64,000 bases of DNA, from positions 372,001 through 436,000 of the forward strand of contig NZ_VLPL01000004.1 in NCBI RefSeq assembly GCF_007558725.1, read 5' to 3'. The notes below the pieces were generated by a model that made no database searches, had not been told where the DNA came from, and saw only the letters and a list, made by a program, of their open reading frames with translations. The stretch is from Fluviicola chungangensis (GTDB lineage: Bacteria > Bacteroidota > Bacteroidia > Flavobacteriales_D > Crocinitomicaceae). Made by a program: the position numbers and the translations under genes. Positions 3,807 through 7,452 of the stretch are shown here, in pieces (position 1 is the first letter of the stretch; every line of letters starts with the position of its first letter).

Positions 3807-3822
3807 CTCCTTATAATCATTG

Positions 3823-3859
3823 AAAAACGTCATCTGTCAATTAGCAGGTGGCGTTTTTT
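3823..3859 (+). terminator. Rho-independent terminator after the tricorn-like protease
   Basis: Arms AAAAACGTCATCTG and CAGGTGGCGTTTTT pair over 14 positions if G-U pairs are allowed, with an 8-nt loop and a T run at the end. It separates the protease gene from the DUF4157 gene, so the latter needs its own promoter. Confidence 0.75.
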
Positions 3860-3891
3860 ATTTTGACTTTTCCTGAAATTTCATAAATTGG

Positions 3892-6126
3892 ATGTCTGAT
3901 AACGGAAAACACTATTTACTTCCAATGGGCATTCACTCAAAAAAAACACCGAAAAAAGATCCTCCGTCGAATGCTTCAAAAAGAAGCAGTAGGGAGTCAA
4001 CCGCTTCTTTTCCTTATACGCAACCCCATTCCCTTGTCCAAAAAAAGATGCAGGAACTCGCGGATTACAGTCCACAGGCTTCCCAACTAAAGTCTGTTCA
4101 GGAAATGGCCGACAAGAACGAAAAAAACCAAACAAAAGAAAATAACACCGGACTTCCTGACAATTTAAAAGCAGGAGCTGAAAACCTTTCGGGGCATTCC
4201 CTGGATGACGTAAAAGTGCACTTCAATTCTCCCGAACCGGCCCAATTGCAAGCCCATGCTTATGCGCAGGGGACAGAGATCCATATTGGTCCCGGACAGG
4301 AAAAACACCTTCCACATGAAGCATGGCATGTCGTACAGCAAAAACAGGGGCGCGTAAAACCGACGAAACAATTGAAAGAAGAAACGAACATCAATGACGA
4401 TGCTGGTTTGGAAAAAGAGGCGGATGTCATGGGAGAAAAGGCAAATTCCCTGCTCCAAAAGCAAGCTTTCCCGGATCAACCGGAAACACTCACGATCAAT
4501 TCTCCGGGAAAGAAAACTCCCATTCAGGCAGTCATGAGTGTAGATGCGTTTAAGCAATCAACCACACTTGGCGAGAACCGGAAAACAATCGCCGCAATAG
4601 ATCAGGCACTCCAGGCATACCATGATTTCAGTCTGCAACCGGTAGACATCGAAGACCAGGACGCCAATACCCAGGAGCGATTGCGTTTAATTCAGATAGT
4701 ACTTCAACGAACCAACACGTATATCCACAATAAAGAACAGGAAAATCCCTGGCACAAACGACTCGAACCTGTACGCAGTTTTAAAGAGGATGTAATCCTG
4801 GAGATCCAACAGTTGAATGGTACCATCGTACGGGACTCATTGATCCAGCAAAAAATTGAAGACGATCCGAACTCAAACACAACCCGTGATTTACTTATTG
4901 CTGTATCACAGGCACCAAGAGCGAAACCGTGGATCCAGGATTATTTGGGTGTTACAAGCAATCCTCAAAAAATAGCCATGATGGAGCGGTTGTATACCGG
5001 CGGAGAACTTCCGGGAATCCTGGACCAGGCATTCATCAATGGGGACGGAACGGATGTATTGCTTGCTTTTCCGAAAGGAAGTGCATTAAATGCCACTCAA
5101 AAAGCAATCATCTCCTTATTTGTAGACCGGGTTACAGATCTGGACGCACTGAAAAAACTGGTCTCTCAACGTTTTGATATAGCTGTTGCCAATATCAAAG
5201 GCCTGGAAGTAGGAAAACCAACCAATGGTGGAGACGGTGAAACCGTTCAGGCAGAAACCGATTGGGACCTGGAAGGATTGAAACGGGCATTCAATGTAAT
5301 GAAGATCTTGCCGGATGGACATGCTTCCAGCAATGACAGTTTTGAAAAACTCAAACGTTTCACCGGATCCGGTGGCTGGTACGGTGACACCAACACGGTC
5401 GCAATAGCTTACGATAATATCGGCGACAAAAAATCGGATGGAAGAACATTTTCAGACAAATGGAATAACCGGGGACAAGATGTTTTTTCCGGGAAAAATT
5501 ATTTTGACGCCAGCGTAAGACATGAAGTGGGACATGCAGTGGATCACGAGCACGACTTCAGCGGCAATTATTGCAATACAGCTAATGGCGGCGGCTGGAC
5601 CACTTTTGCCACTTCCATGAACATGGTCCAGGACTACCTGAACCAAAACAATTCAGCCCTGTCAAACCATCAGGCATGCCTGGGTATGGTGAAACTGGAA
5701 ATAGCAAAACTAATTACCGCCGAAGAAACAGTTGGAAATGTAAAGGCAGAAGTCATCCGGTTAATGGCCCAAACGAGCGGGAATCATGGCATTGCCTTTG
5801 ACCCGGCTATTGTGCGCAACGATTCTATTTTTGAAGATCTTCAGAAGGCAAATCTGCAAAAACCCTGGAAATCGTCCGGAGGGAAAGACGTGGGCGGAAA
5901 AACATTTGTTTATTCCAATGACACCAAATTATTCTCTTATGACACTGCTGCACGCGCCCGACAGGTATCCAATTACCAATTCCGGGCTCCGGCCGAATGG
6001 TTTGCTGAAGCGTATGCCGCATATTATCAGCCGGACCAAACACCGCAAGGTTATGGATCCGCGCTTCAGACCCGCGATGTAACTACCTTTAACTACATTC
6101 AAACCAATGTCGATATCGCCCTATAA
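3892..6126 (+). CDS. DUF4157 (eCIS core) protein with C-terminal HExxH metalloprotease-like domain
   Basis: 744 residues without a signal peptide. Residues 1-85 are polar and look disordered. Residues 86-162 match the DUF4157/eCIS-core domain: LPDNLKAGAENLSG, the DVKVHFNS stretch, AYAQGTEIHIG and HEAWHVVQQ at 142-150, followed by the usual GLEKEAD at 172-178. A helical middle (215-440) leads to a C-terminal domain with HEVGHAVD at 544-551 and a downstream acidic helix AEWFAEAYAAYY at 701-712, the layout of a gluzincin-like zinc protease. DUF4157 is known to mark cargo of extracellular contractile injection systems and other polymorphic toxins, so a protease effector is the best inference. No injection-machine gene is in this window. 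Confidence 0.8.
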   Translation: MSDNGKHYLLPMGIHSKKTPKKDPPSNASKRSSRESTASFPYTQPHSLVQKKMQELADYSPQASQLKSVQEMADKNEKNQTKENNTGLPDNLKAGAENLSGHSLDDVKVHFNSPEPAQLQAHAYAQGTEIHIGPGQEKHLPHEAWHVVQQKQGRVKPTKQLKEETNINDDAGLEKEADVMGEKANSLLQKQAFPDQPETLTINSPGKKTPIQAVMSVDAFKQSTTLGENRKTIAAIDQALQAYHDFSLQPVDIEDQDANTQERLRLIQIVLQRTNTYIHNKEQENPWHKRLEPVRSFKEDVILEIQQLNGTIVRDSLIQQKIEDDPNSNTTRDLLIAVSQAPRAKPWIQDYLGVTSNPQKIAMMERLYTGGELPGILDQAFINGDGTDVLLAFPKGSALNATQKAIISLFVDRVTDLDALKKLVSQRFDIAVANIKGLEVGKPTNGGDGETVQAETDWDLEGLKRAFNVMKILPDGHASSNDSFEKLKRFTGSGGWYGDTNTVAIAYDNIGDKKSDGRTFSDKWNNRGQDVFSGKNYFDASVRHEVGHAVDHEHDFSGNYCNTANGGGWTTFATSMNMVQDYLNQNNSALSNHQACLGMVKLEIAKLITAEETVGNVKAEVIRLMAQTSGNHGIAFDPAIVRNDSIFEDLQKANLQKPWKSSGGKDVGGKTFVYSNDTKLFSYDTAARARQVSNYQFRAPAEWFAEAYAAYYQPDQTPQGYGSALQTRDVTTFNYIQTNVDIAL

Positions 6127-6139
6127 AACTCACTGAATT

Positions 6140-6850
6140 ATGTCCCGATTTCACGAAGAAACTGTTTCTTGTCCGGTTTGCGGAAAAAAAAGTACGGAAC
6201 TGATTGCAACAAGTCTCCGAATTTCATCCAACACCCCATTTAAAGATCAAATACTAAAGGGTGAATTTCAGCGCTTTACCTGCGAAAGCTGTCGCCATAC
6301 CTTCCATGCAGAAGACCCGCTCATGTATATGGACTTTGATAAAAAACTGATGATTGCACAATTTCCCAAACCCTGGAATGCAAATTGGAAAGAACACGAA
6401 AAAGTCGTAACCCATAATTATGACAATTACCTGGCGGGTAAATATGCTGCTCCCGCTGCCCGCGAACTGTCCAAAGGGTTTCAGTTGCGAACCGTATTCG
6501 GGTTGGACGCACTGGCAGAAAAGATTACCTGCCTGGAATACGGACTGGATGATCAATTACTTTCAATCCTAAAATTGCAGCTTATTTTGAATATCGAAGA
6601 AATTCCTTTTCATCCCGAATTCATTCCGCTACTCAAGGAAATCAAAGACGGCGATTTGGTGTTCTTGTGCAGGGTTTTAAATACAGATGGAAATGTAGGA
6701 CAGGCATTTTTTACCTTACCGTTCCCTCTCGCACTAGATGAAGTAAAAAATGCTGCCGATCAATACCAATCATTGTTGGAAACATTTCAGAATGCAACGT
6801 ACATTGATACCGGGCGTCTATTCTTTTCCGCTGATACAAATTCGGTTTAG
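6140..6850 (+). CDS. CpXC domain protein
   Basis: 236-residue soluble protein starting 13 bp after the DUF4157 gene, probably co-transcribed. The N-terminus carries a zinc-ribbon-like pair CPVCGKK (11-17) and CESCRHTF (about 50-57), the signature after which the CpXC family is named; the remaining alpha/beta part (60-230) fits that family's length. The biochemical function of CpXC proteins is not known to me. Position directly behind a putative protease toxin raises the possibility of an immunity protein or a chaperone/adaptor, which is inference only. Confidence 0.75.
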   Translation: MSRFHEETVSCPVCGKKSTELIATSLRISSNTPFKDQILKGEFQRFTCESCRHTFHAEDPLMYMDFDKKLMIAQFPKPWNANWKEHEKVVTHNYDNYLAGKYAAPAARELSKGFQLRTVFGLDALAEKITCLEYGLDDQLLSILKLQLILNIEEIPFHPEFIPLLKEIKDGDLVFLCRVLNTDGNVGQAFFTLPFPLALDEVKNAADQYQSLLETFQNATYIDTGRLFFSADTNSV

Positions 6851-6891: not shown

Positions 6892-7452
6892 ATGGATATA
6901 CTGATAAAAAACCAGGCTGCTTCTCAAAGCATTACCGAACAGATTCAAATTCGCACAAAGCTTTACATACGGAAAACCCGGAACCTGCTTTTAATCGGTT
7001 TTGGCATTGCACTTTTACTAATCGTTTCAGAAATTTTTTCTTTCAACAGCTATTCCATGATTAGAATGGGAAAAAATCAGGTTTACTCTAATTTCCATCT
7101 TATGGGAGGACTCGGAATGGGGCTTGCAATTGTATTCGGTTATTTGGCAATCAGGGTTTCAAAACTGAAAAAGCATGTGCTTTCAGAAGGAAAATCCATG
7201 GCAGATCAATTTCATTCAAAAAATGAATTCGAAATACATATCAACGAACAGGAAGTTGTCTTTTCAAGTCACATCCTGTTTCAAAAAATAAATTGGAGCT
7301 TATTTAAAAGTTATACCCTTTACGAAAACTACCTGTTCCTCAACTTTGAAAACCAACCTTTACATGGAATTTCAATTGACAAGCGACTTTTATCAGACGC
7401 AGAGTTTCAAGCAATTCGAAGAATCGCAACGCACAGGCTCAAAAAAGTCTAA
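6892..7452 (+). CDS. YcxB-like membrane protein
   Basis: 186 residues with two transmembrane helices (about 32-52 and 68-88) joined by a short loop, then a roughly 95-residue soluble tail. The tail (FEIHINEQEVVFSS, then INWSLFKSYTLYENYLFL) resembles YcxB-like C-terminal domains. It lies 41 bp after the CpXC gene on the same strand and could be the third gene of that cassette. Function of the family is unknown. The weak residue conservation of such proteins keeps the family call moderate, while the gene itself looks real. Confidence 0.65.
   Translation: MDILIKNQAASQSITEQIQIRTKLYIRKTRNLLLIGFGIALLLIVSEIFSFNSYSMIRMGKNQVYSNFHLMGGLGMGLAIVFGYLAIRVSKLKKHVLSEGKSMADQFHSKNEFEIHINEQEVVFSSHILFQKINWSLFKSYTLYENYLFLNFENQPLHGISIDKRLLSDAEFQAIRRIATHRLKKV

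Follow-up and report, generated by a model that had tools for sequence, protein, structure and literature searches.

A DUF4157-tagged metalloprotease-like protein of Fluviicola chungangensis, encoded far from the resident injection system and beside a CpXC gene

Does a gene whose product bears a DUF4157 cargo tag, and around which no injection machine is encoded, belong to a machine elsewhere in the genome, and what would its second, zinc-protease-like domain do? The gene in question occupies positions 3892..6126 (+) of the window, by which we mean the whole 64,000-nucleotide stretch of Fluviicola chungangensis DNA analysed here (C14:372001-436000). From an ATG start it encodes a 744-aa protein consisting of the tag, a middle region and a C-terminal metalloprotease-like domain, and we propose that this protein is a cargo toxin of a contractile injection system of the eCIS type. 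A sequence-only reading of the window had described an eCIS-core domain joined to a separate C-terminal HEVGH motif, and the open reading frame is as that reading gave it. The eCIS_core match (Pfam PF13699, residues 88-153, E 4.9e-8) scores 33.5 bits against a cut-off of 22, and the HEAWH motif within it lies at residues 142-146 (4315-4329, +). When the window is divided into thirty-two 2-kb bins, the one from 4001 to 6000 has the highest G+C content (0.465).

Two further genes follow on the same strand. The first, at 6140..6850 (+), begins 13 bp after the effector stop codon, was missed in the sequence-only reading, and encodes a 236-aa CpXC protein (PF14353, E 2.5e-23), which we propose to be the cognate immunity protein. 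The second, at 6892..7452 (+), begins 41 bp after the CpXC gene and encodes a 186-aa protein with no confident Pfam match. Upstream, a terminator-like hairpin (3821..3860, +) separates the effector gene from its S41 protease neighbour; it is weak evidence, and three terminator-like sites were found against 4.5 expected in shuffled sequences. The S41/Tricorn-like gene is present in 12 of 14 same-genus genomes, and both it and the CsaA-like gene on the other flank occur in six of nine same-genus stretches, where other genes fill the 0.95-2.4 kb that separate the two. The effector, CpXC and 186-aa genes are absent from all nine stretches examined. The interval between the S41 and CsaA-like genes is thus a variable locus. 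A clean insertion of the effector and CpXC genes between these flanks was also considered and set aside, as none of the nine stretches showed an exact empty site.

The resident injection system and its cargo tag

The sequence-only reading had called the effector an orphan, having found neither sheath nor tube in the 64 kb. The absence from the window holds, but the orphan label does not: a scan of the whole genome (4.27 Mb in 19 contigs) located both kinds of gene at C14:263-265 kb, and these are the only such matches in the genome. They belong to an eCIS on the same contig as the window (C14:260.9-283.6 kb), 94-112 kb upstream of the effector, which comprises Pvc16_N, sheath, two tube genes, CIS_tube, a spike with Phage_base_V, gp25, a 966-aa tape measure and an AAA ATPase, together with three cargo-like genes. 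The two tube matches (PF06841), the only ones genome-wide, are at C14:263.9-264.8 kb. The sheath family PF04984 has a single, weak match in the genome, under cut-off, at C14:263-265 kb, and a sheath C-terminal domain passes the Pfam cut-off on a closer scan of the locus. The AAA ATPase gene, the last eCIS gene identified by Pfam, ends at C14:282,327, and the effector gene starts at C14:375,892 on the same strand, which puts it approximately 94 kb away from that ATPase gene, its closest eCIS neighbour, and 111 kb from the tube genes. The effector is therefore distal rather than orphaned. It is encoded neither in the eCIS operon nor adjoining it; a place in or beside the operon is typical of eCIS cargo but does not define it.

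Matches to eCIS_core occur at three places in the genome: one is the effector gene, and the other two are genes at C14:277-279 kb. The latter are two of the three resident cargo-like genes, and their C-termini resemble Endonuclea_NS_2, both under the Pfam cut-off; the third is EndoU-like, with 25.9 bits against a cut-off of 25.3. The nuclease cargo genes stand back to back, with no evident immunity gene between them. All three consecutive genes (L009 7413-11010) encode an N-terminal motif of the ILQA(Y/F)K type, and since the third protein has this motif without DUF4157, it may be a loading signal.

A link between the distal effector and this machine is suggested by the tag, which spans residues 56-187 (4057..4452, +). 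By blastp, one resident eCIS_core cargo protein aligns with residues 56-184 at 74% identity (129 aa) and the other with residues 83-187 at 84% identity (105 aa), and no similarity to either was found outside the tag. The same arrangement extends through the genus. From 41 eCIS_core domain matches, a motif pattern yielded 22 distinct proteins, all of which share the tag at 59-84% identity to that of the window protein, and none of which matches its payload or middle region at E<=1e-4. The genus DUF4157 proteins thus combine a conserved tag with a variable predicted C-terminal payload.

Encoding at a distance is also shared. Of 14 genus genomes, 11 have eCIS_core and 10 the tube; eCIS_core is present in every tube-positive genome and, with no tube match, in one further genome that is 84% complete, and both are missing from the remaining three. 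Judging by coordinates, five of the 10 tube-positive genomes carry, on the contig with the tube, an eCIS_core gene whose distance to each tube gene exceeds 90 kb, so that distance from the machine appears normal in the genus. Pfam searches of 10 DUF4157 proteins encoded away from tube genes or on other contigs gave a payload match for five (GNAT, DUF4135, an APOBEC-like deaminase and two Endonuclea_NS_2-like domains, the last two under cut-off) and none for the other five. The DUF4135 payload is presumably LanM-like. Two same-genus tagged proteins encoded far from tube genes (L078 665-2899; L079 389-2791) carry APOBEC/SNAD-like deaminase and DUF4135 payloads.

The catalytic domain and its relatives

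The C-terminal module shared with relatives covers residues 393-744 (5068..6123, +), with the catalytic part beginning near residue 456, as defined by blastp and alignments; the blastp match to the Leifsonia protein described below spans residues 393-741. Within this module, HEVGH (residues 544-548; 5521..5535, +) is proposed to supply the first two zinc ligands and the catalytic Glu, and of Tyr695 and Glu702, seven residues apart (5974..5997, +), the Tyr would be catalytic and the Glu, which is that of EWFAEAY, would be the third ligand of the zinc. We take these roles to be those of the corresponding residues in lethal factor.

Relatives of the domain are few and scattered. A scan of a genome contig collection with six 8-residue patterns returned two, in Leifsonia poae and Streptomyces pinistramenti. 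With the Streptomyces domain as query, seven of 72,556 plasmid records match, and with the window domain none of the 72,556 does; three scans of viral contigs found no relative. A three-member profile matched seven of 395 genomes in the class, but in six of them the match was weak and partial, covering the region of the HExxH helix in five and profile positions 86-208 in one, and these six are not counted as relatives. The protease was found in one of 395 genomes in a phylum search with a seven-row profile, in one of 399 genomes of the order, and in one of the 14 genus genomes.

In L. poae, the tag and the catalytic domain of the effector are joined in one predicted protein within an eCIS operon. 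This 612-aa protein, read from a chosen ATG at L012:6996 (the longest open reading frame begins earlier), contains eCIS_core (E 1.8e-19), T6SS_Tse3_N and, at its C-terminus, the catalytic domain, and its gene neighbours encode sheath, tube, T4 baseplate, AAA ATPase, spike/Phage_base_V, gp25 and a weak PAAR match. The T6SS_Tse3_N match in this cargo (L012 6996-8834) exceeds its cut-off and occupies residues 215-308, between tag and protease. The S. pinistramenti domain lies within an open frame of more than 5,500 codons (L013 3-16585) that runs off the fetched stretch.

Alignment of the window domain with six relatives, which are 23-30% identical to it, reveals that HExxH, the downstream Glu and the Tyr are invariant in all seven members. 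The two-motif layout is thus no chance pairing, and the conservation on which the sequence-only reading had staked its proposal of a second zinc-protease-like domain is borne out, as is that proposal so far as tag and motifs can carry it. The Tyr and Glu are separated by seven residues in every member, as in the alignment with lethal factor, whereas the distance from the second His to the Glu is 138-164 residues in all seven and 45 in lethal factor.

Comparisons with known structures and families point in the same direction at low scores. Searched against the PDB, a three-member profile matched lethal factor (best chain E 3.3e-4, others 0.002-0.025) and Pro-Pro endopeptidases (0.07-1). The seven-member profile, which adds more divergent relatives, gave weaker values (0.002 at best, 0.13-0.25 for the remaining lethal-factor chains and 9.3 for a single endopeptidase), and the single 306-aa window domain sequence matched neither lethal factor nor a Pro-Pro endopeptidase there. 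Matches to the ATLF family (PF07737, cut-off 27.4 bits) fall below cut-off in three proteins, with 24.9 bits for the window domain, 24.3 for Leifsonia and 18.3 for S. anulatus; the best E among the sequences of the three-member alignment is 4.2e-6. In the whole effector, ATLF covers residues 692-737 (E 2.6e-4, 21.2 bits, below the same cut-off), and Reprolysin_5 covers residues 515-572 (18.6 bits, below its cut-off of 27). AlphaFold models made from a three-sequence alignment had a mean pLDDT of 33.9 for the catalytic domain and 36.0 for a longer piece. From these weak matches, the domain is probably a metalloprotease resembling lethal factor and the Pro-Pro endopeptidases (PPEP).

A CpXC partner and the readings it allows

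In six of the seven plasmid records with a protease relative, a CpXC gene directly follows the protease. An annotated CpXC gene stands immediately after a giant gene ending in the protease domain in Leisingera M527, NJS204, NJS201 and thetidis and in Phaeobacter G2, and in the unannotated Hyphomicrobiales record UR115 our reading places a CpXC gene 21 bp beyond the stop codon of the protease. As far as their sequences were read, none stands beside the protease in S. anulatus (the seventh plasmid record), Leifsonia or S. pinistramenti. Conversely, the window CpXC used as a query against the 72,556 plasmids matches six records (E 1e-12 to 3e-6), exactly those with a linked protease, and the Leisingera CpXC retrieves the same six. 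Since the four from Leisingera are closely related to one another, the six records amount to about three independent alphaproteobacterial cases in addition to the window.

The proteins that carry the plasmid proteases have N-termini unrelated to that of the effector. The giant Leisingera carrier (L075) has no Pfam match and no DUF4157, so that CpXC goes with the protease and not with the tag. Two such giant proteins ending in the protease domain are encoded at L075 2982-8528 and L076 2844-8528. The N-terminal 113 aa of the giant recur in five Leisingera/Phaeobacter and two Qingshengfaniella plasmid records, and could represent a toxin carrier in their own right.

Compared with the linked CpXC of another phylum, the window CpXC gives 76-89 bits; compared with four CpXC from Bacteroidota that are not linked, it gives 28-37 bits. 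In a tree of the window protein, four linked and four unlinked sequences, the key node has a support of 51, and it is the bit scores alone that separate linked from unlinked; a fifth unlinked match (L104) was excluded from both tree and score comparison. The stretches read around the five unlinked Bacteroidota loci, one of them only 2.2 kb long at a contig end, contain no HExxH gene. A CpXC profile finds one of 339 genomes of the order, that of the window itself, and CpXC is likewise present in one of the 14 genus genomes. Because CpXC accompanies the protease on different carriers, its function is most simply read as immunity.

We consider it fairly probable that the window protein is a cargo toxin of the resident eCIS, encoded away from the machine and accompanied by its own CpXC immunity gene. 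Under such a scheme, the effector would be made together with CpXC, which would bind and silence the protease in the producer. The DUF4157 tag would address the effector to the eCIS, with loading perhaps carried out by the AAA ATPase, and the particle would then be released and would inject its contents into a recipient cell, where the C-terminal zinc metalloprotease, of the lethal-factor/Pro-Pro-endopeptidase type, would cut a protein. If the producer needs immunity, the target would be one that bacteria possess too; the resident nuclease cargo genes, however, have no evident immunity genes, so that the target cell may also be of another kind.

A broader proposal, which we advance tentatively, is that protease and CpXC form a toxin-immunity module able to pass from one delivery carrier to another, unrelated one and from phylum to phylum. 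In its DUF4157-tagged form the module would arm an eCIS in a Bacteroidota genus, and as part of giant proteins without Pfam matches it would sit on Rhodobacterales/Hyphomicrobiales plasmids. If so, a branch of CpXC, a family so far uncharacterised, would be an immunity family, the resident eCIS would fire at bacteria and, CpXC being ribbon-like, the immunity protein might mimic a zinc-ribbon substrate of the protease.

It is less likely, though worth weighing, that the cargo protease is aimed at eukaryotes such as protists, fungi or invertebrates, and that CpXC is a chaperone or a zinc-loading or folding factor. Most characterised eCIS act on eukaryotes. Invertebrate hosts appear in the available text of Geller et al. 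2021 (PMC8213781), and Zhang et al. 2012 (PMC3482391), likewise in the text available, describe many PVC toxins without immunity genes. The predicted zinc-ribbon-like nature of CpXC would fit this reading, and so would the three members without CpXC. A general factor would be expected with all members, however, and the persistence of the pair with two unrelated carriers and across phyla is the usual pattern of toxin and immunity protein.

We think it improbable that no machine delivers the effector and that its tag is a relic or serves another export route. The distance of some 94 kb to the nearest eCIS gene and the absence of the effector from all 13 other genus genomes searched would fit such an explanation, as would the report, in the available text of Danov 2024 (PMC11297309), that most EATs are encoded no more than ten genes beyond the final core gene. 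Against it, the tag is nearly identical to the resident cargo tags, distal DUF4157 genes (>90 kb) in half of the tube-positive genus genomes make the distance normal, and every catalytic residue is kept. A housekeeping or regulatory protease outside conflict, with CpXC as substrate or adaptor, is very improbable: the activity and toxicity of the domain are indeed predictions, but the protease is rare in order and phylum (one of 399 and one of 395 genomes, the latter with the seven-row profile), sits in a variable locus and bears an injection-system tag, and its relatives are encoded within an eCIS operon, next to a HINT polymorphic toxin or as part of a giant frame of polymorphic type.

If cargo of the resident eCIS is what the effector represents, the locus is of use in several respects. 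For most antibacterial eCIS toxins no immunity gene can be recognised, which Geller et al. 2021 (PMC8213781) present as an open puzzle, and the effector and CpXC offer a testable candidate pair for it, giving one branch of CpXC proteins a predicted role. Cargo of a Bacteroidota eCIS can, moreover, have its gene at a distance of some 94 kb or more, and surveys confined to operon neighbourhoods would miss part of the arsenal.

Comparison with known systems

Effectors of this general kind have precedents, which we describe from the portions of the cited texts available to us. Zhang et al. 2012 (PMC3482391) tabulated Tox-ALFMetallopeptidase toxins with N-terminal PVC-metallopeptidase/DUF4157, primarily toxins of PVC systems (eCIS), with Bacteroidetes and Actinobacteria as hosts and Imm-SuFu as the immunity protein. 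The sequence-only reading had found the catalytic domain unfamiliar, which is apt insofar as its resemblance to lethal factor and PPEP is weak; since DUF4157 lethal-factor-like toxins were tabulated in 2012, the kind of effector was nonetheless already known. The likeness, drawn from the published description, lies in an N-terminal DUF4157 and a C-terminal HExxH metallopeptidase, and the difference in the partner, Imm-SuFu there and CpXC here. Zhang et al. also proposed that DUF4157 processes the cargo itself and reported immunity genes to be missing for many PVC toxins.

The EATs of Geller 2021 (PMC8213781) and Danov 2024 (PMC11297309) share with the window protein an N-terminal DUF4157 and a C-terminal toxin domain, and for some of them (EAT5, RES-like) a neighbouring immunity gene rescues E. 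coli. They differ from it in being encoded in or near the operon and not approximately 94 kb away, and the term "lethal factor" is absent from the texts of both papers. In AlgoCIS (PMC8894135), Cgo1 and Cgo2 are DUF4157 cargo proteins with a common N-terminal part and differing C-termini, shown to fill the tube lumen; unlike the window effector, they are encoded in the eCIS cluster, and the word "immunity" does not occur in that paper. According to a report cited by Danov 2024 (PMC11297309), growth inhibition by Cgo1 is independent of its metalloprotease motifs.

Proteases of the M34 type, anthrax lethal factor and the clostridial Pro-Pro endopeptidase Zmp1, share with the effector domain HExxH, the Tyr, the Glu and the seven-residue Tyr-Glu spacing, and are its best PDB sequence matches, with weak E-values. 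The effector family differs in an insert of about 100 residues, relative to lethal factor, between the second His and the Glu, and in its delivery route. As to the partner, the first 300,000 of the 357,715 characters of Zhang et al. 2012 (PMC3482391) contain no mention of CpXC, and the available texts of the open papers searched did not link CpXC to immunity or describe it as a protease partner. The type of cargo is thus an established one, and its pairing with an antidote of the CpXC family appears to be new.
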